Assembly (NCBI GenBank): GCA_029210545.1
Contig: JARGFV010000016.1
Coordinates: 1-34,142, forward strand
Length of the DNA: 34,142 nucleotides
Source of the DNA: a bacterium
Lineage (GTDB): Bacteria; BMS3Abin14
Direction: 5' to 3'
Both the position numbers and the translations under genes were made by a program. This document shows, piece after piece, positions 135 to 34,069 of the stretch. The notes under the pieces were generated by a model that saw only the letters and a program-made list of their open reading frames with translations, was not told the DNA's origin and searched no databases. The first letter of the stretch is position 1; each line of letters starts with the position of its first letter.

Positions 135-485
135 GTGAAATCCGGAAGAACAACGCTGGATCTAAAGGAAAGCGAACTCCTCGACGAGGTCCACAAGACC
201 GAAAAGGAGATCGACATCTATCTCAAGGATCGGGCCAGGCAAGCCGAAGCCATCCTTGATGATGCCCAGGCAAAAGCTGAAACGGAGCAGAAGCGCATCG
301 ACCGGGAGGTAGAGGGACAGTTCGAGGAGAAGGTCCAGCTGCTGGTCGAGGAGGCGAAGCGGAAGGCTGAAACGATCCTGGAGGAGGGGGCCAGCCTGGC
401 CGAAAGTGAACAAGGCGGGTTGGAAGGGCGCAGGGACAAGGTCGTGGAGAAGATCCTGGAGCTGGTACTGGAGAAAATACCATGA
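135..485 (+). CDS. ntpF: V/A-type ATPase peripheral-stalk subunit (H/G-like, NtpF)
   Basis: A 116-residue, highly charged protein that is almost entirely predicted coiled coil (Lys/Glu/Ala-rich heptads, no membrane segment). This is the expected form of the peripheral-stalk subunit that pairs with subunit E and links the A3B3 head to subunit I. I chose the GTG at 135 because AGGGAG at 123-128 sits six bases upstream and because the longer frame from 57 starts inside a repeat. The stop overlaps the subunit I start (ATGA). First position before subunit I matches ntpF of Enterococcus. The sequence is low-complexity, so the identification rests largely on position. Confidence 0.8.
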   Translation: MKSGRTTLDLKESELLDEVHKTEKEIDIYLKDRARQAEAILDDAQAKAETEQKRIDREVEGQFEEKVQLLVEEAKRKAETILEEGASLAESEQGGLEGRRDKVVEKILELVLEKIP

Positions 486-2374
486 TCACGCCCATGGTCA
501 AGATCACCTTCATGGGCCCGAAGCGGCACCTCATGGGGATCCTTGACCTCGTCCACTCTATGGGCGTCGTGCATCTGGAGCCGTTTCCCATCCCGTATCA
601 GCGCCTCGAGTACATTCACTTCCCGTCGGAGGACGAGAGCCAGGGCCGTTTCAGGCGCCAGATGCAGGGGCTGCTCGAGGAGGTGGAGCGTCTCCTGGTT
701 TCCCTGAAACCGCCCCATAAACTCTCCAAAGCCCCCTCCTGGCTTTTTGGTCACCACATCTCCCGACAGGACCTGGAAAGCTGCATCCACCAGGCTGCCG
801 CCGACATCACCCCTGTTTACACGAGGCTCATCGAGCTGCAGGACGAACTGACCATGCTCCAGAGGTACGAGAGGGTCCTTGCAGCTCTCTATCCCCTGCT
901 GGAAGACGCCACCGAGATCGAGAACCTGGAACTCATGGGTATCATCCTCGAAAGAAAGCGGATCGGCATCCTGCCCCTCCTGGAAAAAGAGCTTGGCAGG
1001 ATCACCTCCGGGCGTTTCCGGATCTTTACGCGCCCCATGGACAAGGATAACGTGGCCGCTATCCTCGCCTACCCGAAGGAGCGGGAAAAGACGGTCCGCA
1101 CCCTCTTTTCCGAGGAAAGCATCGCGGAGATCCGCCTCCCGATCGGGTACGAGGACAAACCGCTGGCGACAACGCTGAGGCTTCTCATACGTCACCAGAG
1201 GGAACTTCCCGAGGAGATCGACGAGCTGGCCGGCCGGATCGACCTGCTTTCCTCCCGCTGGTACGGCACCCTTTCCCGCATCAGGGAGGTGTTAAGGGAA
1301 CGGCTCGACGAGTTCCAGTCCCTGGCCCTGAGCGCCAGAAGCCGACACACCTTCTTTTTGCGGGGCTGGCTGCCCGAAGACAAGGTGGAAATGATGCTCG
1401 GGGTGGTCAAGAGCAACTTCGGTGACGATGTCATGGTGGAGGCGATCCCCGCCCGTTTTCACGAACACGATCGGGTTCCTGTCCAACTTCAAAACGCCCC
1501 CTTTGTGCGCGTGTTTGAACCACTGATCCATCTTCTGGCCCTGCCAAAGTACGGCAGCATAGATCCGACCCCTTTCATTGCCTTTTTCTTTCCCCTCTTC
1601 TTCGGATTTATCCTGGGGGATATCGCCTACGGTCTTTTGCTTCTGGGCCTGTCGGCGTGGTGCTTCAAAAGGTTCGGTGACCGGCCCCTTGTAAGGAGCC
1701 TCAGCGCGGTGTTCATGCTCAGCGGTATCTCCGCGGCCGTTTTCGGCCTCCTTTTCGGAGAGTTTCTGGGGGACCTCGGAGAACACTGGGGCCTGCACCC
1801 GCTGCTCATGGACCGGTCCCATCTGATCATGCCCCTCCTGTTTATTTCCATCGGCCTCGGTTGCGGCCACATCATACTTGGGTTTGCCCTCAACATGATC
1901 ACCTCCATCCGGCAGCGGCAGGTCAAGCACTGGGTGGCCGCCCTGGCCAACATCATCTCCCTTGCCGGGCTCATCGTCATCATCATCTCGGCATCCGGCT
2001 ACTTGCCGATGGGCGATCATATCGGTATCTTTCTCCTGGTACCGGGGATCGGGCTTCTCATCTTCAGCGAGGGACTCATGGGGCCGCTGGAACTTCTGAA
2101 AATCTTCGGGAACGTGCTCTCCTACGCCCGCCTGATGGCCATCGGGGTGGCTTCGGTGGTCCTCGCCCAGGTCGCCAACATGATCGGTCGGACCAGCGAA
2201 TCCCTCGCCGTGGGGATCGTGATGGCCCTCATCTTCCACACCCTCAACTTCGTCCTGGGCGTGTTCTCACCGACCATTCACTCTCTCCGGCTCCATTATG
2301 TGGAGTTCTTCAGCAAGTTCTACCAGCCGGGCGGCAAGCCCTATAGACCGTTCAGGAGACACCGCACCCTATGA
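482..2374 (+). CDS. ntpI: V/A-type ATPase membrane stator subunit I (a-subunit)
   Basis: A 630-residue subunit I, the static half of the ion channel facing the K ring. Residues 1-340 form the soluble, partly coiled-coil arm. Residues about 365-600 hold the membrane domain, starting at the FFFPLFFGFILGD motif (368-380). The essential arginine is Arg550 in the NVLSYARLMAIG stretch (544-555), and the conserved SPTIHSLRLHYVEFF block is at 596-610. The length is normal for the family (600-700). The start overlaps the previous stop, and the stop overlaps the next ATG. It works with the K ring to couple ion flow to rotation. Confidence 0.97.
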   Translation: MITPMVKITFMGPKRHLMGILDLVHSMGVVHLEPFPIPYQRLEYIHFPSEDESQGRFRRQMQGLLEEVERLLVSLKPPHKLSKAPSWLFGHHISRQDLESCIHQAAADITPVYTRLIELQDELTMLQRYERVLAALYPLLEDATEIENLELMGIILERKRIGILPLLEKELGRITSGRFRIFTRPMDKDNVAAILAYPKEREKTVRTLFSEESIAEIRLPIGYEDKPLATTLRLLIRHQRELPEEIDELAGRIDLLSSRWYGTLSRIREVLRERLDEFQSLALSARSRHTFFLRGWLPEDKVEMMLGVVKSNFGDDVMVEAIPARFHEHDRVPVQLQNAPFVRVFEPLIHLLALPKYGSIDPTPFIAFFFPLFFGFILGDIAYGLLLLGLSAWCFKRFGDRPLVRSLSAVFMLSGISAAVFGLLFGEFLGDLGEHWGLHPLLMDRSHLIMPLLFISIGLGCGHIILGFALNMITSIRQRQVKHWVAALANIISLAGLIVIIISASGYLPMGDHIGIFLLVPGIGLLIFSEGLMGPLELLKIFGNVLSYARLMAIGVASVVLAQVANMIGRTSESLAVGIVMALIFHTLNFVLGVFSPTIHSLRLHYVEFFSKFYQPGGKPYRPFRRHRTL

Positions 2375-4566
2375 CGAGACAGATAACCGAAGCGCTCTTC
2401 CTGGAACTGGGGGAACTTCTCAACTCCAACCTCGACGAGGTCACGATCCTGCGCACCTTCTGCAACAAGGTCCTGGCCCTGTTTGACGCGGAGAGAGTTT
2501 CCATCCTGGCGCTGAATCCGCAAGGTCAGCACCTGACCCTCATCGCCTGGGCAGGGCGGTATCCGGAGGACATGGCCGGTGTCAAGGTCACCGTTGGAGA
2601 AGGTGTGTCGGGGTGGGTTGCGGCCACGGGGGAAGCGCTCCTCGTACCCGACGTCAACCAGGATCCCCGGTTCTCGGGCCATGACAAGGACCGGTACAGG
2701 ACAGGTTCTTTCCTGAGCGTCCCCCTCAAGAGCCGGGGACGGCTGCTCGGAGTCATGAACGTCACCGACACGACCATGAACGAAGGTTTCACAGAGCCGA
2801 ACCTTCGCACCCTTAAATCCCTCGCATTGCAGGTGGGGATGGGGATGGAGAACCTCCAGCACCGGAGCGTCATCAACTCCAACTACGATGCGACGACAGC
2901 CCTGGTCTCGGCGCTCCAGGATCTTCAGTCCCAGGCCGCCGATATCGAGTCCGGACTGGTCCCGGCCGCAGTCAAAACCCTGAACGTCACCCTGGGAGCC
3001 CACTCCCACATGATCCTCATCGGTGACATGACCAGTAACAGGGCCTGGGTCGGCAGCCTCGGAACGGAGGGGGGCATCAATATGTCCGTAATGGACTACC
3101 GGTCCGGATACTCCCTTTATCAGGCCCTGGCCTCTCTCTCCCTCCATCCGCCCTACAAGGAGAACGACCGCCTGGTCGAGTTCGGGTTCGCCTGGAACGA
3201 GGTCATTGACTCGGACCTGCGCCTCTTGCGCAGTCTCCTGCCGCCCAGACACGACCAGTTCGGCCTTTCCCTTTCGGCCATCCCGGACACCAACCCGGAC
3301 GCGCTGGAGACGTTCCGGTTCCACCAGTCGGTGATCACCCAGTTCGTGGGTCTTCTCCTGGAGGGGATCTTCAACAGGATCCAGATCAAACGCCTCGATC
3401 ACCTCAAGACCGAGCTGATCTCAACTGTGTCCCACGAACTTAGAACGCCGCTGACCTCCATCCAGGGGTTCTCCGAGCTCCTGCTCCGGAGCAGGGATAT
3501 CCCTGAAGGGAGTCAACGCTACCTCAACATCATCAACAACGAAAGCATGAGACTCAACCGGCTCATCAACAACTTCCTTGACCTCGCCCGCCTCGAGTCG
3601 GGGCAACTCAGCCTCACCAAGGAGCCTTTCGACCCTCTGGAGGTCGTAGAGCACGCCGTCAAGCTCCTGAAACCCCAGGCTGAAAGCGGCAAAGCGATGG
3701 TTCGGCTGCACTGCGACCGGAACCTCCACCAACTCATCGCCGACCAGGACAGAGTGGAACAGGCCCTGGTCAACCTTATCGGCAACGCCATCAAGTACGG
3801 AGGGAACGGGGTCTGCATCGACATCAATCTCAACGCTTCCGACGGGTACACCATCTTCGAGGTCTCCGACAACGGGCCCGGGATTCCCGAGGAGGAGATT
3901 TCCCTGGTTTTCAACCGCTTTTACCGGGGTATGCTCGACACCCAGACCGACGAGGGCAAGGAGGTTAAAGGAACAGGCCTCGGCCTCTCCCTGACCAGGG
4001 AGATCGTCGAGCAGCACGGCGGAACCATATCCGTCCAGAGCCGGCCCGGCGAGAGCACCTCCTTCCGATTCTCTTTGCCCAGCCTGGGGCTTATCAGCCC
4101 ACAGAGGGGGATAACAGCGTGGCATCCCGGGGACGAAAAGTTTTCCAGCGAACTGGCCAACCGCATCGCGGAGGGCAAGGCGGTGGGTGTCCTCACCCTT
4201 CATGTGAACCCCGGCTCCGGGGGTAATGAAGAGGAAGCCTACTCGGTGGAGGCCCTCAGCGACATCGAGGAACTCATTGTGGGAACGCTCAACGGCAGGG
4301 GGGTTGGAGATGACCTCATCCAGAGCAGGCCCCAGGGGGAGTTTGTCATCCTCACCTACTCCTCCCTGGTTGACCAGTGCGCTGACGACCTTATCGCCTC
4401 CTTCAAAAAACGTTTCGGGGACGGTTACGACATTGCCATCGGGGCGGCCATCGCCTCCCAGAGTGACAAACCCAAGCCCGAAAAGCTCATGGCCCTGTCA
4501 CGGCAGGCCTGTCAATATGTGGAGAGAACCCAGAAGAAAGGGTACCTGAAAAACAGGAGGATGTGA
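2371..4566 (+). CDS. Soluble GAF sensor histidine kinase with degenerate GGDEF-like C-terminus
   Basis: A 731-residue protein without membrane segments. Residues 20-165 resemble a GAF domain, and 170-335 look like a second, diverged sensory region. The HisKA H-box is at 351-366 with His355 (VSHELRTPLTS). The ATPase domain has the N-box with Asn472 and the glycine motifs DNGPGIP (500-506) and GTGLGLSL (534-541). Residues 590-728 have the layout of a GGDEF domain: GEFVIL at 656-661 where GGDEF would be, IAIGAAIA near 688, then a C-terminal helix ending in QKKGYL. The catalytic GG(D/E)EF is missing, so it is probably a sensor or partner domain. An ATGA overlap couples it to subunit I inside the ATPase operon, and no response regulator is adjacent. 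The kinase call is firm; the GGDEF relic is inferred from pattern. Confidence 0.93.
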   Translation: MTRQITEALFLELGELLNSNLDEVTILRTFCNKVLALFDAERVSILALNPQGQHLTLIAWAGRYPEDMAGVKVTVGEGVSGWVAATGEALLVPDVNQDPRFSGHDKDRYRTGSFLSVPLKSRGRLLGVMNVTDTTMNEGFTEPNLRTLKSLALQVGMGMENLQHRSVINSNYDATTALVSALQDLQSQAADIESGLVPAAVKTLNVTLGAHSHMILIGDMTSNRAWVGSLGTEGGINMSVMDYRSGYSLYQALASLSLHPPYKENDRLVEFGFAWNEVIDSDLRLLRSLLPPRHDQFGLSLSAIPDTNPDALETFRFHQSVITQFVGLLLEGIFNRIQIKRLDHLKTELISTVSHELRTPLTSIQGFSELLLRSRDIPEGSQRYLNIINNESMRLNRLINNFLDLARLESGQLSLTKEPFDPLEVVEHAVKLLKPQAESGKAMVRLHCDRNLHQLIADQDRVEQALVNLIGNAIKYGGNGVCIDINLNASDGYTIFEVSDNGPGIPEEEISLVFNRFYRGMLDTQTDEGKEVKGTGLGLSLTREIVEQHGGTISVQSRPGESTSFRFSLPSLGLISPQRGITAWHPGDEKFSSELANRIAEGKAVGVLTLHVNPGSGGNEEEAYSVEALSDIEELIVGTLNGRGVGDDLIQSRPQGEFVILTYSSLVDQCADDLIASFKKRFGDGYDIAIGAAIASQSDKPKPEKLMALSRQACQYVERTQKKGYLKNRRM

Positions 4567-4572
4567 GGATCT

Positions 4573-4669
4573 ATGTCTCAGATCTCATATCTCAAAAAAG
4601 TGCGTCGAGTCGCTGCAACCTCGCGCAAATCATAGTTTGAGATCTGAAATCTGAAATCTGAAATCTGAA
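4573..4669. repeat. 7-bp-phased repeats between kinase and subunit K
   Basis: Three loose heptads ending in CTC (atgtctc, agatctc, atatctc) occupy 4573-4593. Four perfect tandem copies of ATCTGAA follow at 4642-4669. They lie in the 125-bp gap before the proteolipid gene. They are members of the window-wide heptad pattern. Confidence 0.9.
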
Positions 4670-4691
4670 ATTCGCACTGAAAGGGGGCACC

Positions 4692-4913
4692 ATGTCAGAA
4701 AACATTCTCATCGCCTTCGCAGCGGCGCTCGCCATCGGGCTCCCTGCCCTTGCCACTGGATGGGCACAGTCCCGCATCGGCTCTGCCGGGGCCGGAGCCC
4801 TGGCAGAAAAACCCGAGATCAGCGGAACCATCATCATTCTGCTGGCCATCCCGGAAACCATGGTGATCCTGGGTTTCGTCATCGCCTTCCTTATCCTGGT
4901 GATGCTCAAGTGA
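4692..4913 (+). CDS. ntpK: V/A-type ATPase proteolipid subunit K (c-subunit)
   Basis: A 73-residue single hairpin of two membrane helices (about 5-32 and 45-72) joined by a polar loop around Glu39-Lys40-Pro41. It forms the rotating ring. The ion-binding carboxylate is Glu55 in IPETMVILGFV (53-63), typical of archaeal-type c subunits. Gln26 lies 15 residues before Pro41, the same offset as the Na+-ligand Gln32 before Pro47 in Ilyobacter subunit c, and Thr56 follows the glutamate. These features are compatible with Na+ specificity but do not prove it. Enterococcus NtpK is a doubled four-helix form; this one is undoubled. A purine-rich GGGGG stretch precedes the ATG. Confidence 0.95.
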   Translation: MSENILIAFAAALAIGLPALATGWAQSRIGSAGAGALAEKPEISGTIIILLAIPETMVILGFVIAFLILVMLK

Positions 4914-5569
4914 ACGACAGGTCCCGGGACACGTCGGGTTCTGACCGGCTTTTGGAAAGTTTGTGGCAGGACGCGAAACGGGAGGCCGCGCAGAATCTTT
5001 CCAGGGCCACGGCCCAGGCTGCGAAACTCCTCGCCGACATCCAGGCCTACCGTGACCGAGAGGTTGCCAGGGCCCACGAAAGGGCTCTGGAGAAGGCTGC
5101 CCCGGAGATCGCACGGATCCTCAACAGGGCCCGCGGAGCTGTCGAGAAAAGGACCCTCGATGAAACGTACCGCTTCCTTGATGAATGTCTTGCCCGCGCC
5201 CGGATTTTACTGAACGGGAGTGAGGATATATCCGGGGCCGCTCGCGCCGCCTTTGAGCCACTCTTCAGGCAGGCGGCCGTTCATTTCGAAAGCGAACAGG
5301 AGGTTCGGATCGTCATTGCGCCGGCCGACCTGGAGATCGCCCGGCGCCTCGTATCCGAGGCGGGGTTCGAGTGCACGATCGCCGAGGAACCAGGCATCCT
5401 GGGCGGCGCCAGGATCGAGGCAGCGAACGGCTCTCGCCTGGTGGACAACACCATCGCCGGCCGCCTCGCTGTCCTGGGGGAGTACCCGCCTGTGGAGGTT
5501 CTGGGATCGATGTTACCGGGGATCCGATCTATCCCCGACCCGGATGCTGTCGGGGAGGTCAAAGGTTGA
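4910..5569 (+). CDS. ntpE: V/A-type ATPase peripheral-stalk subunit E
   Basis: A 219-residue subunit E. Residues about 12-85 form a charged helical N-terminal half that pairs with the NtpF/H coiled coil. Residues about 100-205 form the mixed C-terminal domain that binds the top of subunit B, including the GGARIEAANGSRLVDNTI block typical of E subunits. The start is the GTG at 4910, which overlaps the K stop (GTGA). The frame is open further upstream but there overlaps all of K. The stop codon lies inside the first hairpin of the E-C spacer repeat, so the last codons border repeat DNA. Confidence 0.93.
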   Translation: MNDRSRDTSGSDRLLESLWQDAKREAAQNLSRATAQAAKLLADIQAYRDREVARAHERALEKAAPEIARILNRARGAVEKRTLDETYRFLDECLARARILLNGSEDISGAARAAFEPLFRQAAVHFESEQEVRIVIAPADLEIARRLVSEAGFECTIAEEPGILGGARIEAANGSRLVDNTIAGRLAVLGEYPPVEVLGSMLPGIRSIPDPDAVGEVKG

Positions 5570-5838
5570 TGGACTCGCAAAAAGTCCATCAACGCGCCCC
5601 GCGCGGGGCGCCCAAATCAATGACCGGCAAAAACAGCCGCACCTGGGAGAGGCGCCCGGATCGAGTGCCAATGGCTGTGTGTTCGATCCGTGAGGGAACC
5701 GAAAACCACGCTTTTCGGTTCCCGTTGAGCCAAAGTCTTACCCGGACTTTGGCGATATTACAGCAGTCTCCGTAAGGAAAGGGAAAACGACGCTTTTCCC
5801 TTTCCGTGGAGCGAAAAGTCCCGCCTGGACTTTTTGCG
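5567..5838. repeat. Seven-hairpin chain inside the ATPase operon, copy B
   Basis: The 307-bp spacer between subunits E and C is almost entirely inverted repeats. They lie at 5567-5591 (TGATGGACT arms), 5594-5611 (GCGCCCC palindrome), 5658-5689 (GGATCGA arms), 5694-5723 (GGGAACCGAAAA arms, 6-nt loop), 5730-5752 (CCAAAGTC arms), 5776-5805 (GGAAAGGGAAAA arms, 6-nt loop) and 5814-5834 (AAAAGTCC arms). None is followed by a clear T-run, so termination is not obvious. I see no gene in this spacer. The order is the reverse complement of copy A. Confidence 0.93.
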
Positions 5839-5876
5839 AAGTTGACAAACATGAGGTGACCTGGGGGGATCCTGAA

Positions 5877-6920
5877 GTGACCTGCGAGATCGAATACCTG
5901 AACGCCCATATCAGGGGGGGTGCAGGACGTCTCCTGCCGGAGGAAAGCGTCGCGGCCCTGTTCGGGGCGACGACCAGGGCATCCTGGACTGCCGCGCTCA
6001 GGGACACACCTTACAGCATCCACCTTGGACCGGTCGCCGGGGACCAGGACAGCCGCTTGTTCTTCCGTGCCGTGGACCAATCCATAGCTCACCGCACACA
6101 CCGCCTCGGGCATCTGGTCAACGGCCGCCCGGGCCTGGCCCTTTCCGTATGCCTTTCCGAATGGGACCTTTCGAACCTGCTGGGCATCGTCAGCGGTATC
6201 TGCAACAGCGCCCAACCTGCCCAGATAATCCCCGCGACCGTTGCCGGCGGGCTCCTGGGGCCCGATCAGATGGAAACCCTCTCCCACTGCAGGACTCTCC
6301 CGCAGGCCGCTGACTTCCTCAGGTTGTGGCGGTTCCCCAAACAGGCCCTCGTTCATGAGGTCTTTTTCGGGTTCCAGGACATGTCCCTGCCGCAGATCCG
6401 TCTGGAACTGTCCAGACGATGGCACGGGCAACTGCTGAAAGATGCCAGGCAGGCAGGCTTTCGGGCCCTCATCCGTCTCATGTCCGAACGGATCGATCAG
6501 ATCAACATCATGACAGCCCTTATGTGGAGGGTCCTTCCCTCTGACCGGGACCCCGTGGAGTTCTTCCTCGAAGGCGGCAGTGCAGTGGATCTTCGAACCT
6601 TTCGAAAAGCCCTCGCGGCCCCGGACATCCTGGAGGCCATCTCGGCCCTGACGGCTGGACGTCTGCGCAGCGTGCTCCAGGCCGCGGCGGTCATCGGTCC
6701 GGATGGTGAAGAGCGGATCTCAGCTCTTCACCAGGCCCTCGAAAACGAGCTGACTCACCGGTACAGCCGGCCGCTGGTCAGGGACCCTCTGGGCATAGAA
6801 CTCATGATCAGCTTCCTGCTGCGGCTGCGCCGCGAGGGGATCAGGATCAAACTTTCCCTGACCCGCCTCATATACGACATACCCAGGGACATTTTCCTGG
6901 AGATGACCGGCTATGTCTGA
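5877..6920 (+). CDS. ntpC: V/A-type ATPase subunit C (d-type, rotor-ring adaptor)
   Basis: A 347-residue, mainly helical protein without membrane segments, the expected size of the funnel-shaped C/d subunit that seats the central stalk on the K ring. The family is diverged and I see no catalytic motif. The call rests on length, the N-terminal pattern EYLNAHIRGG with the helical repeats that follow, and position between E and F. I prefer the GTG at 5877, preceded by a G-run at 5863-5868, over the in-frame GTG at 5856, whose only purine stretch abuts the codon. The stop overlaps the subunit F start by 8 bp. The hairpin-rich spacer upstream could give this distal half of the operon its own expression level. 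Confidence 0.88.
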   Translation: MTCEIEYLNAHIRGGAGRLLPEESVAALFGATTRASWTAALRDTPYSIHLGPVAGDQDSRLFFRAVDQSIAHRTHRLGHLVNGRPGLALSVCLSEWDLSNLLGIVSGICNSAQPAQIIPATVAGGLLGPDQMETLSHCRTLPQAADFLRLWRFPKQALVHEVFFGFQDMSLPQIRLELSRRWHGQLLKDARQAGFRALIRLMSERIDQINIMTALMWRVLPSDRDPVEFFLEGGSAVDLRTFRKALAAPDILEAISALTAGRLRSVLQAAAVIGPDGEERISALHQALENELTHRYSRPLVRDPLGIELMISFLLRLRREGIRIKLSLTRLIYDIPRDIFLEMTGYV

Positions 6921-7242
6921 AGTCCTGGTGGTAGGACAGCCGGAGATCGTTGAGGGGTTCGGCCTGACCGGGGCCCGGTTCGAAGCCGTGACCGACCCTG
7001 ACCGCGTCGAGTGGCTGGTGACCGAACTCATGCGCAACCGCGACACGGGGATCGTTATTATCACCGAAGACCTTTACAATCAGATCCCGGAGAAGTTGCG
7101 GGTCAAGGCCGAAGCCAGCGCCCGCCCACTGTTCATCACTCTCCCCCGCCCTGTCGGTCGGGAACTTTGGGACGAAAGGGAGGATCTCATTTCGAGGATC
7201 ATCCGCCGGGCTATCGGGTACCGGTTGAAGATCAGGAGATGA
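6913..7242 (+). CDS. ntpG: V/A-type ATPase central-stalk subunit F
   Basis: A 109-residue alpha/beta protein of the subunit F family (NtpG in Enterococcus naming). The N-terminus (VLVVGQPEIVEGFGLTG) and the GIVIITEDLYNQIP stretch (about 46-59) are typical of this Rossmann-like subunit, which binds subunit D and modulates hydrolysis in the central stalk. The ATG at 6913 overlaps the C stop by 8 bp, showing tight coupling. The length is normal (about 100). Confidence 0.93.
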   Translation: MSEVLVVGQPEIVEGFGLTGARFEAVTDPDRVEWLVTELMRNRDTGIVIITEDLYNQIPEKLRVKAEASARPLFITLPRPVGRELWDEREDLISRIIRRAIGYRLKIRR

Positions 7243-7251
7243 TACAGATAT

Positions 7252-7300
7252 CAGTAACCAGTAGGCAGTAGTCTGACCTCTGGCTACTGACCTCTGGCTA
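7252..7300. repeat. Seven consecutive 7-bp units between subunits F and A
   Basis: Seven heptads run in unbroken 7-bp phase: cagtaac, cagtagg, cagtagt, ctgacct, ctggcta, ctgacct, ctggcta. The second half is a 14-bp unit repeated twice. They fill the only gap between F and A and stop just before the subunit A ribosome site (7306-7312). Confidence 0.92.
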
Positions 7301-7320
7301 CTTGAAGAAAGGTGTCTTCC

Positions 7321-9129
7321 ATGGCTGAGGGAGGGACAATCTACCGCATCTCCGGGTCCACCGTCGAGGCGGCGGGGCTCCTATGCGCCAGGATGTACGA
7401 CGTGACGCGAGTTGGCGGCCCCGGAATCATGGGAGAGGTCATCCGCATCCACCACGACCTGACCACCATCCAGGTCTACGAGGACACGTCGGGCCTGTCG
7501 GTGGGCGAACCGGTGATCTGCGCGGGCCACCCTCTCACAGTGGAACTGGGACCGGGCCTTCTCGGACAGGTTTTCGACGGGATCCAGAGGCCGCTCCTCT
7601 CACTGAAAGAGGTTGAGGGAGATTTCATCCTGCGGGGTACCGACGTCCGTTCCCTGGACACGGAGCGGGAATGGGAGTTCACCGCCGTGGTGAGCGAGGG
7701 GCAGGAGGTCACCGGGGGAGACGTTCTTGGTACCGTGCCCGAGGGCGGCCGCATCGTTCACCGGATCATGGTGCCGCCGGACGTGGCGGGCCGGGTCCGG
7801 GAAGCGCGTTCGGGAACCTTCCGGGTGGACGACACGGTGGTCCGCCTGGACACAGGTTCCGATGGCATGCTGGATCTGTCCCTTGTACAGCGCTGGCCGG
7901 TACGAATCCCCCGACCGTGCGTCACCAAGATCGCACCCGACCGTCCCTTCCTCACGGGGCAGAGGGTTCTCGACACCCTTTTCCCCATCGCCCTTGGCGG
8001 AACCGCCATCGTCCCGGGCGGGTTCGGAACGGGTAAAACCGTCGTTGAGCAGACCCTCGCCAAGCACGCTGACGCGGACGTGATCATCTATATCGGATGC
8101 GGCGAGCGGGGCAACGAGATGACCGAAGTCCTCACGGAGTTCCCCAAGCTTGAGGACCCCCAGACGGGCCGTTCCCTCATGGAGAGGACGGTCCTCGTGG
8201 TCAACACCTCCAACATGCCCGTGGCGGCAAGGGAGGCGTCCATATACACCGGGATCACCATGGCCGAATACTTCCGGGACATGGGTTACCACGTGGCTCT
8301 CATGGCCGATTCCACCTCCCGATGGGCCGAGGCGCTGCGTGAGATATCCAGCCGCCTCGAAGAGATGCCCGGCGAGGAGGGTTACCCGACCTACATGGGG
8401 ACGCGGCTGGCCGGTTTTTACGAAAGGGCCGGGCACGTCCGGACCCTTGGTTCCGATGAGCACACAGGCTCGGTGACCATTGTCAGTGCCGTCTCCCCCC
8501 CCGGAGGTGACTTTTCGGAGCCTGTCACACAAGGGTCCATGAGGATCGCCGGCGGGCTCTGGGCTCTCGATACGTCCCTGGCCCATCGCCGCCACTACCC
8601 TGCCATAAGCTGGACCCGCAGCTACAGCCTTTACGGGGAGACGCTGGCGCCGTGGTTCGCAAGGGAAACCTTCGAGGACTGGGCAGTCCAGAAACAGCGG
8701 CTCAACCGCATGCTGGAAAGAGAAAAGGAGATCCAGGAGATGGTCCAGCTGGTGGGAGAGGACGCCATCCCGGACAACGAGAGGGTCCTCCTCCTCGGCG
8801 CCAGGCTCATCCGTGAGAACTTCCTCCGCCAGAACGCATACCACCCGGTGGACGCATCGTGCTCCCTGATGAAGCAGTACTGGATGCTCAAGGCTTTCCT
8901 GGACGGGTATGAGACAATCCTTTCGGCCCTGGGGACCGAGATCCCCCTGGAAAAGCTCCTGGAGCTGACCACCATCGTTGATCTTGCCCGGCTCAACGAG
9001 CAGCCCGACGAGAAGTTCCCTGAAGCATCCCACCTCATCCTGAAAAAGCTGAAGGCGGAGATCGAGGAACTGGCCGGAGAGATGTCCAGGCAAAGGGAGA
9101 AGTTCGAACAGGAGGAGAAACGTGGATGA
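7321..9129 (+). CDS. ntpA: V/A-type ATPase catalytic subunit A
   Basis: A 602-residue catalytic subunit that hydrolyses or makes ATP at the A/B interfaces. It shows the N-terminal barrel (about 5-70), the A-specific bulge domain (about 110-190), the P-loop GGFGTGKT at 233-240 with Lys239, the catalytic glutamate region GERG at 261-264 (Glu262), the [20 protein letters not shown] block from 333, and [13 protein letters not shown] at 392-404. I chose ATG 7321 because AGAAAGG at 7306-7312 gives good spacing; a GTG nine bases earlier overlaps that site. The stop overlaps the start of B. Confidence 0.98.
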
Positions 9130-10558
9130 GCTGATGACAAGGAAAGGTCGGGGACTTGTCGGCATATCAGGACCGCTGGTGAGCATGCCCGCCGACCCGG
9201 GTACATTCCTCGGGCAGATGTTGGAACTGACCACCGGCAGCGGACTCAGGCGCCAGGGGCAGGTGCTGGAGATCTCCAGGGAGAAGACGACGGCCCAGCT
9301 TTTCGAGACGACCCAGGGGATCGACACGGCCTCCACCTGGGTCCGTTACCTGCCAAGGACCGCCAGGATAAGGCTTTCGAGACGTATGCTGGGCAGGAGG
9401 TTCTCCGGCAGCGGCGCTCCTCTTGACGGAATGCCGCCCCCCGTACCCGAGATCGAGACCGAGATCACCGGCAGCCCCATCAATCCCATGGCCAGGGACA
9501 AACCGTCCGATTTCATCCAGACCGGTATTTCGTCCATCGACCTGCTCAATACCCTCGTCAGGGGCCAGAAACTGCCCATCTTCTCCGGTTCGGGACTGCC
9601 GTCCAACGAACTGGCTGTGCAGATCGTCCGGCAGGCCTCGGTGGTAGGCGAGGAGAGCGATTTCGCCATCGTCTTCGCCGCCATGGGCATCACCCACCGG
9701 GACGCTTCCTTCTTCGTGGACGCCTTCGAATCCACGGGGGCCATGAACCGCACCGTCGTGTTCCTGAACCTGGCTTCCGACCCCACCATCGAGCGGCTGT
9801 TGACACCACGAATGGCCCTTTCCACGGCCGAGCACCTGGCTTTCGAGCATGGCCTCCACGTCCTGGTGGTCCTCACAGACATGGCCAACTACTGCGAGGC
9901 GCTCAGGGAGATCGGCAACGCCCGGGAGGAGATCCCTGGACGACGGGGATACCCCGGGTACATGTATACGGACCTGGCCATGATCTACGAGAGAGCGGGC
10001 CGGATCAGGGGAAGAGCGGGCTCCGTGACACAGATCCCCATCCTCTCCATGCCCGACGACGACATCACGCACCCCATCGCCGATCTCACCGGGTACATCA
10101 CGGAAGGACAGATCGTCCTGTCCCGCGAACTTCACCGCAAGGGGATCTTTCCTCCCATCGATGTTCTCCCCAGCCTGTCCAGGCTCATGAACCTGGGGAT
10201 CGGTGAGGGGAAGACGAGGGGCGATCACAGGAACCTGGCCGACCAGATCTACGCTTTCTATGCCAGGGGGCGGGACCTGAGGCGCATGGAGGCCGTGGTG
10301 GGAGAGGACGCCATGACCAGCGAAGACCGAAGATACCTCGCCTTTTCCAAGCGGTTCGAGGAAATTTTCCTCCACCAGGGCAATAAAGACAGGAGCATAG
10401 ACCAATCGCTCACGGGGGCATGGGACCTTTTCGCCGGTTTTCCTGAAGCCGAACTGACGCGCATTGACCGCCGCTGGATCCAGGAGTATTTTCCCGGGAA
10501 CGGCCGGGATCGGGATGGAGCGCCCCAAACGGAGGTGGACGGAGGTGCCGTGCCGTGA
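9122..10558 (+). CDS. ntpB: V/A-type ATPase regulatory subunit B
   Basis: A 478-residue non-catalytic subunit alternating with A in the head. It has no P-loop; the equivalent place reads [17 protein letters not shown] (about 156-172), as expected for [20 protein letters not shown] (from about 278) is the conserved B signature. The GTG start at 9122 has GGAGG at 9111-9115. It overlaps the end of A by 8 bp, and its stop overlaps the GTG of D. Confidence 0.98.
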
Positions 10559-11190
10559 GCGTTCCGGCCACCCGGATCAACCTCCTGGCCAGCAGGGATC
10601 GAATGGCCCTGGCCATAGCCGGGGCCGACCTGCTGAAAAGCAAGAGGGAGGCGCTCATCAGCGATTTTTTCCGGATCGTGGACACCATCGTGCACAGCAG
10701 GGAGGAGATGGCGAGGGAGGTCCAGAGGGCCATGACCCAGGCCGGGATCGCCAAATCCTTCGCCGGGAGCCAGAGCCTGACCGCCGCGGCCCTTTCAGCG
10801 AAGAGGAATATCCCCATCAAGACCCGCGAGATCAACATCTGGGGCATCCACATTCCCGAGATCCATTTTGTTTCCCTCCGCAGGACCCCTGAAGCCCGGG
10901 GGATGCTTCCCATCGACACGTCTCCCCACATTCTCGAGACAGCCGAGTCCTACGAAAAACTCCTGGACCGGTTGCTGAGGACCGCCAGCCAGGAGATCCG
11001 CCTCAAGAGACTGGGTGAGGAGATCCGCAAGGTGAGCCGCAGGATCAACGCGCTGGAACAGAGCCTCATCCCCTCCCTTTCCGGCCAGATCCATCAGATG
11101 CTCAGCACCCTCCAGGAACGGGAGAGGGAGGACCTTTTCCGCCTCAAGCACATCAAGAAGAGCAAAAGGACAAAAGAGATTGGCCGGTAA
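10555..11190 (+). CDS. ntpD: V/A-type ATPase central-stalk subunit D
   Basis: A 211-residue rotor shaft. It starts with the family pattern [26 protein letters not shown]-type helix (about residues 5-30) and ends in a second long helix (about 125-210), the antiparallel coiled coil that turns inside the A3B3 head. The GTG at 10555 forms a GTGA overlap with the B stop, with GGAGG at 10541-10545. The following antiporter gene starts inside its last codons. Confidence 0.95.
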
Positions 11191-12406
11191 CGAGATCATC
11201 GCCCTGGGGATCCTGCTCATGGCGGGGTTCGCGGGGGGCAAGGCGAGTTATGCCGCCCGGCTGCCCAGCGTCACCGGCTATATCCTGGCAGGGCTTCTCC
11301 TCGGCCCGTCCCTCCTGGACATCATCACTCCGGAGACCATCGAGAAGCTGGAGTTCATCAACTCCCTGGCCCTTTCTCTCATCGCCATCTCCGTGGGGGG
11401 GAAACTTGACCTGGCCGAGCTTTCGGGCGGATTTGGAACGATCCTGTCCGTGAGCCTCATGCAGACCCTTTTCGTTGGTGCCGGGACCTTCGCGGCACTC
11501 GTGGTGTCCGGCGTCAGCCCGGCCCTTGCCCTTCTCCTCGCCGCCACAGCGCTCGCAACGGCGCCGGCGGCCGTCATGGCGGTGGTGGAGGAAACCCGGG
11601 CACAGGGCCCTTTTACCAACACCCTCCTCGCGGTGGTCGCTCTTTCGAACGTGCTTGCCGTCATGGTGTTCGGCTTTGCCATGGCAGCGGTTCCCTTCGT
11701 GGAACTTGACACCGGTTTTTCCCTTGCCCTGACGCGGGCCCCCATGGCCAGCCTCGGGGGAAGCCTTCTCCTGGGTGCGGGTATCGGCCTTATCCTTTCC
11801 CGGGTGGCCCCCATGGCGCGCAACCGCCAGGAGATCCTCATAATCATCCTCGGGACCGCTTTTTTGAGCAGCGAGCTGGCCAGGATAGGGTTGAAGTACT
11901 CCCCTCTCCTCATCAACATCACCATCGGGTTCGTCCTGGTGAACCTCTGTCCCCTGAAAGACCGCCTGTTCGAGGCCATCGGGAGCGTCGAGCTACCCAT
12001 CTACATCACCTTCTTCAGCCTCCAGGGGGCCCACCTCGATATCAGGGTGCTCGGCGGGTTGGGGCTTGTGGGTGTGACCTACATCCTGAGCAGGATGGCC
12101 GCCAAGGTGATGGGGGCGTGGCTGGGGGCTGCCGTGACCGGTGCGGCCGGACCCATGAGAAGGTTCCTGGGACCTGCCCTGTTCCCCCAGGCGGGCATCG
12201 CCATCGGCATGTGCGTTGCCGTGAGCAACACGCCTTCATGCAGCGCCTATGCCCCGACCGTTACCACCGTCGTCCTCGCCGCGGTGCTGATCAACGAACT
12301 CATCGGTCCTGTCGCCGTTAACATTTCGCTGAACAGGGTCGGTGAGGCCCGCCCGCGGGTCGTGCGCAAAACCGCCAAACGAAATACTGGAGACGAGAAG
12401 CGATGA
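11180..12406 (+). CDS. Cation:proton antiporter family protein (CPA2-like), first of a pair
   Basis: A 408-residue membrane protein with about 12-13 helices in the Na+/H+ exchanger fold. LPSVTGYILAGLLLGPS (28-44) is typical for the first helices. The unwound helix 4 pattern is TALATAPAAV (123-132). Where exchangers carry the ion-binding DD or ND pair on helix 5, this protein has Ser156-Asn157 (VVALSNVLAV), so it lacks the usual carboxylates. The TTG start at 11180 overlaps the subunit D end by 11 bp and has AAGGA upstream. It is probably cotranscribed with the ATPase and with the paralogue that follows. It could be a non-transporting partner subunit or use other ligands. Confidence 0.87.
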   Translation: MAGNEIIALGILLMAGFAGGKASYAARLPSVTGYILAGLLLGPSLLDIITPETIEKLEFINSLALSLIAISVGGKLDLAELSGGFGTILSVSLMQTLFVGAGTFAALVVSGVSPALALLLAATALATAPAAVMAVVEETRAQGPFTNTLLAVVALSNVLAVMVFGFAMAAVPFVELDTGFSLALTRAPMASLGGSLLLGAGIGLILSRVAPMARNRQEILIIILGTAFLSSELARIGLKYSPLLINITIGFVLVNLCPLKDRLFEAIGSVELPIYITFFSLQGAHLDIRVLGGLGLVGVTYILSRMAAKVMGAWLGAAVTGAAGPMRRFLGPALFPQAGIAIGMCVAVSNTPSCSAYAPTVTTVVLAAVLINELIGPVAVNISLNRVGEARPRVVRKTAKRNTGDEKR

Positions 12407-13509
12407 ATTTCCTCACCATCGGATGCCTGGTGCTGGGATATCTCCTGGGGGAGAGCGGCCTGGGACTCTTTAACGTCTACACCATCGGGCACCTGAAACC
12501 GTTCATTGCCTTTGCCCTCGGCTGGGTGGGGTTCATCATCGGTGAGAACCTGGAGTTCAGCACCGTGCGCAGGATGTCGGCACAGCTATTGATCCTCTCA
12601 CTGGGACAGTTGACGGCCGCCTTCGTGCTCACAGGCTGGGCGCTCTGGTGGTTCCTGTCCGGCCCCGCCGGATGGCCTGCCGGGACGGCCCTGGTCTTCA
12701 GCCTGCTGGCAGCCTGTACCGCCACAGCCACCGACCCGATCACCGCGGCGGCTCTCATGGACAGGGGCAGGAGAGCAGCCGGCCTTTCCCACCTGCTCAT
12801 GCAGCTGGCCACCATCGCGGACGTTTTAACCACCCTCCTGTTCTGGCTGGTCCTGTCATTTTCGGTGAACCACATCGGCAGCGGCGTTCCGGGCGGTTTC
12901 GGGTTCACGGTCGAGGCCCTGCTCCACCCGGCTCTCGGGCTGGCACTCGGGTTGGCCCTGTCCCTCCTCATAACACCTGAAAGGGACCAGAGGGAGGTGA
13001 CTCTCCTCTTCATGGCGGCCTTGTTCATCGCCGTTGGCGCCGGGATGGCCATCAGGGTCTCACCTCTCATCGTGTGCATGTTTGCCTCGGCCTTCGTCAT
13101 GAGCGTGAAAAGGGGCAAGACCGTTATCCGGGAGGTCGTCCACCAGCTGGAAATGCCTGTCTACGTCACCTTCCTCATCATGTGCGGTGCCCTTTTCAAA
13201 CCCCCTCTCCTTGTCGATCTCTTCTGGCCACTTCTCATCTACGTGGCCCTCAGAGCGGTGGGAAAAACGGGAGGGATCTTTATCACGGCAAAAGCGATGC
13301 ACCTTGAACCCGGGGCCCCCCGGCTGGGGTTAGGCCTGCTCAGCCAGGCCGGCCTCGCCGTGGTGCTGGCGGTCAACATCTACTTCGAAGTGGATGCGGC
13401 CCTCGGGCTGAACCTGATAGCCCTGACCACGGCGGGAATCGTCGTCAACCAGCTGCTGGGGATCGAGGGGATGAAGCTGTTAAAATCAACATTTGAGGAA
13501 GAAGAATAG
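12403..13509 (+). CDS. Cation:proton antiporter family protein, second of a pair
   Basis: A 368-residue membrane protein with about 11-12 helices, paralogous in fold to the previous gene and coupled to it by ATGA. Unlike its partner it keeps ion-site features: TATATDPITAA (106-116) with the Asp111-Pro112 seen in CPA1-type helix 4, and Ala139-Asp140 on the next conserved helix (LATIADVLTTL). In position it replaces ntpJ, the cation transporter that closes the Enterococcus ntp operon, which suggests recycling of the ion moved by the ATPase. Substrate and direction cannot be read from the sequence. Confidence 0.87.
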   Translation: MNFLTIGCLVLGYLLGESGLGLFNVYTIGHLKPFIAFALGWVGFIIGENLEFSTVRRMSAQLLILSLGQLTAAFVLTGWALWWFLSGPAGWPAGTALVFSLLAACTATATDPITAAALMDRGRRAAGLSHLLMQLATIADVLTTLLFWLVLSFSVNHIGSGVPGGFGFTVEALLHPALGLALGLALSLLITPERDQREVTLLFMAALFIAVGAGMAIRVSPLIVCMFASAFVMSVKRGKTVIREVVHQLEMPVYVTFLIMCGALFKPPLLVDLFWPLLIYVALRAVGKTGGIFITAKAMHLEPGAPRLGLGLLSQAGLAVVLAVNIYFEVDAALGLNLIALTTAGIVVNQLLGIEGMKLLKSTFEEEE

Positions 13510-13538
13510 AGCATTATTCCTCAAGCGCTGATTTTAGT

Positions 13539-13566
13539 GTCTAGCGTCTGGTGTCTGGTGTCTGGA
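13539..13566. repeat. Four 7-bp units after the antiporters
   Basis: gtctagc, gtctggt, gtctggt, gtctgga in perfect 7-bp phase, 30 bp downstream of the ATPase-antiporter operon. Confidence 0.92.
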
Positions 13567-21439: not shown

Positions 21440-21575
21440 GGGAAAGTCATGGTATCGGGAAAAGGGGGCATGGGAGCGGGGAGGAAACGACGTATCGGGG
21501 TATCGGAGTGTCGGGGAAAATGCGAAGGGGGCATGGGAGCGTGGGTGCGTGGGCGTGGGAGCATGGGGGAAAGAG
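21440..21575. repeat. G-rich quasi-periodic block (7-8 bp)
   Basis: Repeats of the type tatcggg (about 21492-21520) and gcatggg/gcgtggg (about 21530-21570), with a period of 7 to 8 bp, just downstream of the aldo/keto-reductase-like gene. Short ORFs read through it but have no support. Confidence 0.7.
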
Positions 21576-22412: not shown

Positions 22413-22447
22413 CCCATTCCGGATTCCACCTTCCACATTCCGCATTT
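22413..22447. repeat. Five 7-bp units between the ABM and AKR genes
   Basis: cccattc, cggattc, caccttc, cacattc, cgcattt in 7-bp phase. The block reaches the stop codon of the ABM-fold gene. Confidence 0.85.
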
Positions 22448-22751: not shown

Positions 22752-22938
22752 GGAAATCTCCTTTGTTCTATAACGGCACGCGTTGAAGGGCAATCTGTTG
22801 AAACAGTTCTAAGAGAAAAGAGATAGGTGATATGGTAAACCTTATCTCTAATCACCTGTTCCTTAGCACTAATTCATCCCTTCCCCCAGCACCTTCCTTT
22901 CAGTAGACATGGTCCTATTGGATAAAACCTACTATCAC

Positions 22939-23023
22939 AGCTATAAGCTATCAGCTAAAAGCAGTTGTTTTTCTGCGCCCTGCGCCCTGGGACCTGCGCT
23001 CTCCATTTTCTATTTTCTATTAT
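22939..23023. repeat. 7-bp-phased blocks downstream of the DUF554 gene
   Basis: Block one (22939-22966) is agctata, agctatc, agctaaa, agcagtt. Block two (22975-23023) is gcgccct, gcgccct, gggacct, gcgctct, ccatttt, ctatttt, ctattat. Two different unit families follow each other without loss of phase, up to the DUF554 stop codon. Confidence 0.92.
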
Positions 23024-23710: not shown

Positions 23711-23780
23711 GTTCCACGTTCCAGGTTTCAGGTTCCAAGTTTAACTCCTTTGGACTTTGGACATTGGACTTTGGACTCCT
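23711..23780. repeat. Ten consecutive 7-bp units between DUF554 and DUF169 genes
   Basis: gttccac, gttccag, gtttcag, gttccaa, gtttaac, tcctttg, gactttg, gacattg, gactttg, gactcct. The phase is kept for 70 bp while the unit changes from a GTTCCAR type to a GACTTTG type. It fills the whole spacer between the two genes. Confidence 0.93.
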
Positions 23781-24561: not shown

Positions 24562-24718
24562 TGATAGAGTCGCAAAAAGTCCAATCCGGGACTTTTCGCT
24601 CCACGGAAAGGGGAAAGCGTGGTTTCCCCTTTCCTCACAGATCAATGACTTACAGTGCAAGTCATTGATCTGGGCGCCCCGCGCGGGGCGCGTTGATGAC
24701 TTTTTGCGAAGTCATCAA
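24562..24718. repeat. Hairpin-chain repeat, complete five-module copy E
   Basis: In order: AAAAGTCC/GGACTTTT (24575-24596), GGAAAGGGGAAA/TTTCCCCTTTCC (24605-24634), AGATCAATGACTT/AAGTCATTGATCT (24639-24671), the GCGCCCC palindrome (24674-24691), and TTGATGACTT/AAGTCATCAA (24693-24718). It is the most regular copy. The start sequence gatagagtcgcaaaaagtcc is shared with copy F at the window end. Confidence 0.93.
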
Positions 24719-24736
24719 GATTCAAGATTCAAAGAG
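24716..24736. repeat. Three 7-bp units abutting copy E
   Basis: caagatt, caagatt, caaagag directly continue the last arm of the hairpin chain. Confidence 0.75.
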
Positions 24737-24844: not shown

Positions 24845-24975
24845 AACACTTTCCCGCCCTCCGCCCCAGGCAGGATGGACGAGTCGCCCTGCACCATGGT
24901 TTTTCTCCTCTTCCCCTCTTCCAAAGCTGAAGGTCATTCAACCTCTCTCCCCCTCCCCCCCCCTCTCAGGGAAGG

Positions 24976-26043
24976 TTACTCTCCGACAAGCCCTATCCTG
25001 ATGATGTCCGCCAGTCGGCGGTAACCATCCTGATTAGGGTGCGCCACATCCATCAAATACTCCGGCGTATTATAACCCCTGAACCTGTCGTTGACATCGA
25101 TAATGGGGATGGCCCTGTCGCTGGCGATTTTCCGGATAGCTTCGTTGAAGGGGGCCGGGTCGACCCGTCCCAGGATGCTCGCGCCTTTCTGAAGGCGGGT
25201 AGTGGTGAGCAGCACCGGTTGTGCACCCTCGGCGAGGATGCCGTCCACCATGGAAGCGAGATTCGAGGCAAAAACCGCCACCGACTCACCGTCCTTCATG
25301 TCGTTGAGGCCAAAGGCAATGAGGACGAGATCCGGATCACGGTCCAGGACGTCCCTTTGCAGCCTGGCGAGGCCGTTGGCCGCCGTGTTGCCGGCGACAC
25401 CGGCGTTGATCACCTCGACGCCTCCGAAACGGGCACCGAGATCGCGGGCCAGCATCTCGGGCCATCCCTCGGGCTGGTTATACCCTTCCACGATGGAGTC
25501 ACCGAAAGCCACCACGGTCTGGTATTGCCCGCCTTCGAACCCCGCTTTTAACTCGCCGCCTTTCCGGTCGCAGCCGGTGGTCAGCAATAGTAAAAGTAAC
25601 GGTAAAAGAGTTGTCAGGCCGAGGTTCAGAACGCGTTTCGGGTTTTGCGTTTCGAGCTTCGGGTTCTGGGTATAATTCTCGATCCTCAATCGCGCTTTTC
25701 CATTGAACCCCGCACTTCCCAGCCCTGCCTGTCCGTCGCGGCTCGTCAGAACGAAGTCGGAAGCCTGCCAAAGGGTGGGCATTGGACTGATGATCCTCTC
25801 CTGGCTCCGGACTGATGTATCCCCAGGCAAAGCGAATTTCAGATCAAGGACAGTCCCCTCGGCCGGCGGTGATGGTGTCTGGATGCAGGCTCCTCCTTCT
25901 GAAAGGTTCTTGACCACACCGGCCAGGTTCTCACCTGCCACTGTAAAAGCGCAGGGAAGGGTGGTGGAGATCCGCGGGAACTTTCTATCGACAAGAGCCA
26001 ATTCATCGTCCCTGGACAAATAAAAGCTTTGGCTCCAGGTCAT
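24976..26043 (-). CDS. PilZ domain fused in frame to a TesA-like SGNH lipoprotein hydrolase
   Basis: One open frame of 355 residues. Residues 15-85 are PilZ-like, with the c-di-GMP motifs RKFPR (20-24) and NLSEGG (46-51). Residues 100-140 are a linker partly encoded by a 7-bp repeat block. Residues 140-158 are a signal-peptide-like helix ending LLTTGC with a lipobox at Cys158. Residues 175-355 are an SGNH/GDSL esterase: FGDSI (Ser183), NAGVAGNT (Gly215), GLND (Asn247) and DVAHP (Asp332, His335). A cytoplasmic PilZ ahead of an internal lipoprotein signal is odd. The hydrolase may instead start at the TTG at 25689 (residue 119), leaving the PilZ part as a relic whose stop was lost. It is adjacent to two other PilZ genes. 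Confidence 0.8.
   Translation of the reverse strand: MTWSQSFYLSRDDELALVDRKFPRISTTLPCAFTVAGENLAGVVKNLSEGGACIQTPSPPAEGTVLDLKFALPGDTSVRSQERIISPMPTLWQASDFVLTSRDGQAGLGSAGFNGKARLRIENYTQNPKLETQNPKRVLNLGLTTLLPLLLLLLTTGCDRKGGELKAGFEGGQYQTVVAFGDSIVEGYNQPEGWPEMLARDLGARFGGVEVINAGVAGNTAANGLARLQRDVLDRDPDLVLIAFGLNDMKDGESVAVFASNLASMVDGILAEGAQPVLLTTTRLQKGASILGRVDPAPFNEAIRKIASDRAIPIIDVNDRFRGYNTPEYLMDVAHPNQDGYRRLADIIRIGLVGE
25634..25668. repeat. 7-bp-phased block inside the PilZ-SGNH frame
   Basis: cgtttcg, ggttttg, cgtttcg, agcttcg, ggttctg in 7-bp phase. On the - strand it is translated as the linker around TQNPKLETQNPKR. All other blocks of this kind here are intergenic or only touch a stop codon. Confidence 0.85.
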
Positions 26044-28731: not shown

Positions 28732-28766
28732 AGGTCTGCACCCTGCTTCCTGCTGCCCTGCCCTGA
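28732..28766. repeat. Five 7-bp units downstream of the sigma-54 activator
   Basis: aggtctg, caccctg, cttcctg, ctgccct, gccctga in 7-bp phase, between the isochorismatase remnant and the activator gene. Confidence 0.75.
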
Positions 28767-34020: not shown

Positions 34021-34069
34021 CGGGTTTTGGGTTTTGCGTTTCGGGTTTCAACCTCAAGCATCAAACTTG
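34021..34069. repeat. Seven 7-bp units before copy F
   Basis: cgggttt, tgggttt, tgcgttt, cgggttt, caacctc, aagcatc, aaacttg in unbroken phase. More irregular units lie at 33968-34020. The block runs straight into the hairpin-chain repeat. Confidence 0.9.

Follow-up and report, generated by a model that had tools for sequence, protein, structure and literature searches.

Paired heptad and octad arrays in the intergenic DNA of BMS3Abin14 genomes as possible recognition elements of array-binding proteins

Repeat Arrays of the Window

The stretch of DNA under study (the window; 34,142 nucleotides, 59% G+C) is contig 16 of a 2.72 Mb genome assembled in 241 contigs (G000). A V-type ATPase operon, which contains a GAF/histidine kinase gene, occupies positions 482-13509. 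Its A subunit exhibits 75-78% identity to counterparts in three genomes of the phylum (G001, G003 and G006) and weak matches in the remaining phylum members; the nearest named relative of the V-ATPase, at 60% identity, is in a Nitrospirae MAG. Gaps between genes were delineated with one purpose-written simple gene finder (~85% of the DNA called coding), and arrays were scored as matches minus mismatches at the given lag, with a cut-off of at least 11. By this measure, the 6.0 kb of intergenic DNA of the window harbour 10 arrays, and every block named in a sequence-only reading of the window (near 4642, 7252, 13539, 22939, 22975, 23711 and 34021) is indeed present.

The inverted pairs of the window are located at 4576-4671, 7245-7302 and 23711-23777, the latter two being assigned by a shared core and fold and not by automatic family label. 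In the first pair, a 5′ arm with the unit TCTCANA (TGAGATN family; 4576..4594, plus strand) is matched by a 3′ arm of 4.9 TGAAATC/TGAGATC units (4638..4671, minus strand), which folds onto it, and the arms stand in the order seen in 6 of the 7 pairs of this family. The second pair consists of a plus-strand 5′ arm (CAGATAT, CAGTAAC, CAGTAGG, CAGTAGT; 7245..7272), which fits the CAGTANN family with a value of only 0.55, and an abutting minus-strand 3′ arm (7273..7302), in which CTGACCT and CTGGCTA alternate twice before a final CT; the reverse complement of the latter contains CAGTAGC, and the two arms fold. The in-phase switch of unit that had been read within this block, at 7272/7273, is thus the junction of an array with its own reverse-complement partner. 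The 5′ arm of the third pair (GTTCCAC, GTTCCAG, GTTTCAG, GTTCCAA; 23711..23741, minus strand) fits the AACCTGG family best, and its TCCA core complements the TGGA core of the 3′ arm (CTTTGGA, CTTTGGA, CATTGGA, CTTTGGA; 23748..23777, plus strand). The 3′ arm belongs to the TTGGAYN family, and its heptads are found at ~30 places in the genome.

Single arrays on the minus strand include TAGTGTC/TGGTGTC of the ACACYAG family (13535..13565), ATTCCRC (22416..22445), which takes up most of a 44-bp gap, and GGGTTTT/GGGTTTC (34022..34049). A unit resembling the last one, CGCGTTT/CGGGTTT, also forms a heptad array within the reading frame of a PilZ-GDSL lipase gene (25632-25671). The arrays listed without a strand are AGCTATN (22939..22962), which lies outside the large families (fit 0.48), an array drifting from CTGCGCC to TTCTATT with its phase kept (22973..23019), which fits no family well (0.51), the short array TCAAGAT (24715..24732), and the weak arrays AAGAGAW (22811..22832) and CTGCNNC (28736..28757), both with a score of 9. 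Period-8 arrays, likewise without a strand, were found at 21481..21514 (GGNGTATC-like), 21527..21567 (GGGNGCNT-like) and 24903..24922 (a short one, TTCYCCTC).

Genome-wide Phasing and its Distribution

The wider analysis covered 12 genomes of the phylum BMS3Abin14, which belong to one family and eight genera. G000 was represented by 1.53 Mb (56% of the genome), of which 248 kb are intergenic, and lag-k matches were scored against dinucleotide-preserving shuffles. The 248 kb gave z=48.1 at lag 7, followed by z=27.1 at lag 14 and z=17.3 at lag 21, while the neighbouring lags 6 and 8 were weaker (z=12.6 and 16.3, respectively). Hence, the genome-wide excess at lag 7 foreseen in the sequence-only reading is borne out, and it is neither absent nor equalled at lags 6 and 8. 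A smaller sample of G000 (434 kb) gave z=28 at lag 7, and the 6.0 kb of the window gave 7.9, 3.3 and 0.3 at lags 7, 6 and 8. In the same intergenic DNA of G000, lag 17 fell below the shuffled level (z=-7.7) while lag 16 lay above it.

At a score of at least 11, the gaps of G000 contain 359 arrays of period 7, 126 of period 8 and 17 of period 6, as compared with 1, 1 and 2 in one dinucleotide shuffle of these gaps; the 1,282 kb of coding DNA hold 42 period-7 arrays. Those of period 8 form a second class in their own right, with units of their own.

Period-7 arrays were detected in all eight phylum genomes sampled, at 6 to 17 per 10 kb of intergenic DNA in G001, G002, G003, G004, G007, G008 and G009, where G002 and G008 are represented by array counts alone because masked N inflates their lag z-scores. 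No arrays were found in 50 kb of E. coli K-12 or in one stretch each of five genomes belonging to other families, and about eighty named loci of other bacteria and archaea yielded arrays only in scattered cases. The pattern TTGGANNTTGGANNTTGGA was matched 54 times in G000, 52 times in G003 and once in a Nitrospirae genome, with no match in seven others.

One explanation of such phasing is that of neutral simple repeats, according to which slippage prefers steps of 7 nt and the arrays survive in noncoding DNA; the preferred step may correspond to the stretch of DNA that the polymerase grips (Mrazek 2007, as relayed by PMC4679880 and PMC4692102). The harmonics at lags 14 and 21 and the scarcity of arrays in coding DNA agree with this explanation, whereas the separate period-8 class with its own units does not, and on the whole of the evidence given below we consider it unlikely. 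Mismatch-repair loss is not the cause, since MutL was found in 8 of the 12 genomes, G000 included. The dedicated reverse transcriptase for which a search had been proposed was found in none of G000, G001, G004, G007 and G008.

Unit Families with Cores and Free Columns

The sequence-only reading took the units to be ever-changing and the 7-bp step to be independent of sequence. The vocabulary, however, is restricted: 156 canonical units suffice for the 350 arrays of eight genomes, as opposed to 281 after shuffling of letters within units, and units are common to genera. A unit also used in G000 was found in 25 of the 59 arrays of G003 (null 5.6) and in 12 of the 18 of G007 (null 2.2), while no unit is common to G004 and G000. 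When units were grouped by greedy clustering, about 12 heptad families covered 294 of the 350 arrays, the largest being TTGGAYN/TGGANNY (74 arrays in seven genomes), TGAGATN (42), CAGTANN (36) and AACNGTR (34), with the rest smaller; NNCGAAG is also among the large families. The octads are represented by GACRCGGR (75 arrays) and ACYCCGAT (49). One of the heptad families, AATCACG, has an ATCAC core, to be set beside the WATCACW heptads of pSM19035 ParB/omega.

Variation within the units is not spread evenly. In AACNGTR, neighbouring units differ at the free column in 0.49-0.54 of comparisons and at most other columns in 0.07-0.16. Because clustering itself could create differences between columns, the deviations of each array were spread evenly over the columns in simulation and the arrays were then reclustered; the total chi2 of column heterogeneity was 1044 as observed and 115-152 in six such simulations. 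Each family thus has a fixed core and free positions, and the uniform decay of columns expected of slippage was not seen. Together with the restricted vocabulary and the fixed order of pairs described below, this contradicts a 7-bp step made regardless of sequence. Self-palindromic units, tried as a source of the step, are not enriched and were therefore ruled out. At G003:C6:71198-71258, about nine TTGGAGT units form a perfect array, which exceeds the usual four in both length and purity and is probably a recent slippage expansion.

One family deserves separate mention. AACGAAG forms a compact element of ~70 bp, and in the nine copies aligned the 5-bp cores are constant and the intervening 2 bp variable. 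The spacer measures 11-15 bp in 7 of the 9 pairs, and the unit next to the outermost one reads CAAAG in most left arms, opposite CTTTG in most right arms. These copies resemble a multi-copy element, spacer included.

Inverted Pairs

A complement score of at least 12 within the same gap was reached by 35% of the G000 arrays, as opposed to 6% when arrays were matched to other gaps. Two arrays of one family lying on opposite strands at most 150 bp apart were taken as a pair. The two possible arm orders are distributed over the heptad families as 0/9, 6/1, 6/0, 0/10, 9/0, 3/0, 0/3, 0/2, 0/2 and 1/0, which places 51 of 52 pairs in the majority order of their family, and over the octad families as 6/0, 0/10, 0/2 and 0/1 (19 of 19), or 70 of 71 pairs altogether, most of them from one dominating genome. 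With the first pair of each family left out, the chance of this under random order is ~2e-16, a figure to be read bearing in mind that shared descent makes the pairs not fully independent; the fixed order could reflect inheritance by descent.

Paired arms comprise at least three full units in 96 of 103 cases, at least four in 63 and at least five in 9. The tail of unit numbers is longer in unpaired arrays and looks like slippage, which speaks for the neutral explanation. Yet under that explanation units should be random and all columns should decay alike, and neither inverted partners nor a fixed order should occur; all four predictions fail. Neutral slippage as the sole process is consequently disfavoured: it acts on the arrays but leaves their content unaccounted for.

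The spacers range from 2 to 148 bp, with 46% A in the first 6 nt and 47% T in the last 6 nt. Fixed-order inverted pairs with a variable spacer are what would be expected of non-autonomous mobile elements, whose inverted terminal arrays would be moved in trans by a transposase in the manner of REPINs and RAYTs. Such mobility would also suit the random extragenic placement of the pairs, the behaviour of AACGAAG as a multi-copy element with its spacer, and the occurrence of Y1 transposases in 8 of the 12 genomes. In most other families, however, the copies have no common spacers or flanks, their arms show no compensatory changes, and the free columns are random, whereas descendants of a single master would be expected to agree in them. 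In addition, G007 (98% complete) has arrays without any Y1_Tnp match, for which reason the Y1 transposase was rejected as the mover. Taken together, mobile elements seem an improbable source of the arrays in general.

Since the paired arms are predicted to fold into long stems, and 39 of 50 pairs sit between codirectional genes, RNA hairpins in transcripts (terminators, stabilisers or protein-binding RNA) were considered as well. The pairing of the arms, though, is no better than with their units permuted (672 vs 699), and compensatory changes are absent. Mismatches in codirectional pairs comprise 50 G.T and 75 A.C, the opposite of what is expected of RNA, the large families show no strand or orientation bias relative to genes, and the window has no Rfam match. 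The hairpin reading is therefore disfavoured already and seems very improbable indeed. Maintenance of the arms by base pairing was rejected too, there being neither covariation nor a G.U bias.

Placement and Turnover

The position of arrays within gaps is near-uniform, with no preference for starts, stops or terminators. Per kb, convergent gaps contain 2.27 arrays, codirectional ones 1.45 and divergent ones 1.22; the near-uniform position and the 1.5-fold excess in convergent gaps are both in accord with neutral repeats.

Turnover could be followed in G004 and G009, which are ~82-89% identical over collinear DNA. Arrays in orthologous gaps differ in presence, unit number and unit sequence, and the differences in presence or absence fit mobile elements. 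As regards gain and loss of single units, 6.2 kb of intergenic DNA are alignable, and they contain one clear step of 7 bp in unit number, the four CTCTGGA units at G004:C4 9715 as against three in the orthologous gap of G009, which is also what neutral repeats would give. At G004:C4 4352 the unit itself differs between the two genomes (TAGTACC vs TGGTTTC).

Other repeats were noted as well. In G000, a compound palindromic intergenic element, TCATTGATTTGGGCGCCCCGCGCGGGGCGCGTTGATGACTTTTTGCGAAGTCATCAAC, recurs and often abuts a heptad array (L116:1-80, L118:7210-7300, L119:12940-13030, L160:20-100). A dispersed repeat of ~165 bp in G003 (L145:9487-9651) has dozens of copies with 85-93% identity; those found in G011 and G008 have diverged further. 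In loci L182-L184 of G007 (e.g. L183:11308), several TTGGAYN arrays adjoin a GATTGCCACGTCG...CTCGCAATGACA repeat, a relative of which is found in L111 of G000.

Interpretation

The over-representation of heptanucleotides in many bacteria is usually ascribed to polymerase slippage. Here, the conserved core, the arms of four units and the fixed orientation of pairs argue for recognition and not for slippage alone. We therefore favour, with confidence evenly balanced between its being right and wrong, the reading that the arrays are dispersed dyadic recognition elements, in which 5-6-bp cores repeated at a pitch of 7 or 8 bp serve cooperating putative DNA-binding proteins and are reshaped by slippage. 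The observed base of this reading comprises the pitch, the vocabulary, the core and free columns, the pair order, the paired arms of about four units and the sharing between genera; the absence of a strand preference relative to genes, and of pairing of the kind expected in RNA, points to elements acting at the level of DNA.

The full form of such an element would consist of two arrays, each with about four copies of the core, in opposite orientation across a variable spacer that is A-rich at its left edge and T-rich at its right. Several related sequence-specific proteins may bind adjacent sites cooperatively along an array, so that the step of 7 or 8 bp would be set by the footprint of the protein, as in omega/ParB (7 bp); the step of the MetJ repressor is 8 bp. 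The bound proteins may then bridge or dimerise across the pair, while slippage or deletion between near-identical units would subsequently alter the number of units and could lengthen unpaired arrays. Given that location within gaps is nearly neutral, a function for the chromosome as a whole (in nucleoid structure, segregation or silencing) is more probable than the control of particular genes.

Several observations stand against protein binding. Promoter-proximal placement, which is expected of regulators, is not favoured; 619 of the 722 heptad arrays (~85%) have no inverted partner of the same family within 150 bp; and the heterogeneity of columns per array, without clustering, reaches only z=3, so the column effect is strongest at the family level. 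Moreover, G000 encodes only 2 RHH_1 domains, far below the number of unit families, and proteins of the RHH_1 family thus cannot serve them all.

A bolder proposition, which we put forward as a doubtful one, is that hundreds of dyadic arrays serve as marks on the chromosomes of this phylum. They would be composed of over a dozen distinct words of 7 and 8 bp, every word being recognised by a separate member of a putative family of array-binding proteins, and the repeats of Xanthomonas and Geobacter would represent simpler forms of this unrecognised system. One architecture would then tie together three unexplained observations, those made in the present phylum, in Xanthomonas and in Geobacter. 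The binding model predicts that the binding protein can be retrieved with 70-bp DNA.

Comparison with Known Systems

In most bacterial genomes that are rich in repeats, heptamers outnumber all other long simple repeats (Mrazek 2007, as relayed by PMC4679880 and PMC4692102). The parallel with cyanobacterial STRRs, which the sequence-only reading had drawn while knowing of no description in this kind of organism, holds in so far as these and other long simple repeats are heptanucleotide tandem repeats over-represented in intergenic DNA, but heptads have been described well beyond cyanobacteria, in Xanthomonas, Beggiatoaceae and Geobacter metallireducens. In the portion of the description given by PMC4679880 and PMC4692102, STRRs and long simple repeats are defined by unit length only, and core and free columns or a pairing rule do not form part of it.

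Some likenesses are limited to single traits. The TAACTGA repeats of Beggiatoaceae (MacGregor 2015, PMC4679880) are dispersed intergenic heptads in two to six copies; in contrast to the present arrays, they have a single unit, oriented upstream of start codons with one inverted case, and their presumed effect is on translation. REPINs (Bertels and Rainey 2011, PMC3116915) are inverted doublets with a variable spacer and random extragenic placement, but their ends are conserved 16-mers tied to RAYT genes, with compensatory changes, and not tandem heptads. The ParB/omega protein of pSM19035 is a ribbon-helix-helix protein, the dimers of which bind 7-bp repeats in direct or inverted orientation (PMC9499535). 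Its parS sites, like the present arrays, are contiguous non-palindromic 7-bp repeats in both orientations, at least four of which are required for function (PMC9499535), and a family with the ATCAC core, AATCACG, is present among the arrays here. The parS sites, however, serve in plasmid partition, next to copS, delta and omega, and have one unit only.

The closer counterparts share the paired architecture. The GGGNATC heptads of Xanthomonas (Rehm et al. 2015, PMC4692102), found also in Nostoc, have a 7-bp pitch, variable positions within the unit and mostly four units; they are intergenic, scarce between divergent genes and without a favoured gene class, form ~70 convergent inverted pairs per genome, and differ in unit number between species. 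They nevertheless comprise one G-rich unit per genome, ascribed to G-quadruplex formation, whereas here octad families occur in one genome together with some 12 families of heptads, the majority of which lack G-tracts, and none of the large families TTGGAYN, TGAGATN, CAGTANN, AACNGTR and NNCGAAG is a G-rich, quadruplex-forming unit of this kind. Classes 1-3 and H4 of Geobacter metallireducens (Aklujkar et al. 2009, PMC2700814) consist of 3-5 tandem 7- or 8-mers in opposite-strand pairs at variable distance, and, by the published consensus, class 2 (TCTCCGTS) corresponds, on the opposite strand, to the main octad family GACRCGGR. These elements, regarded as putative global-regulator sites, with IHF/HU binding put forward as a hypothesis, number 24, 21 and 8 pairs and 49 H4 elements, as against several hundred arrays per genome and many families here. 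The orientation rule of both systems is taken as worded in PMC4692102 and PMC2700814. The arrays described here are a richer form of the architecture reported, but left unexplained, in Xanthomonas and Geobacter.
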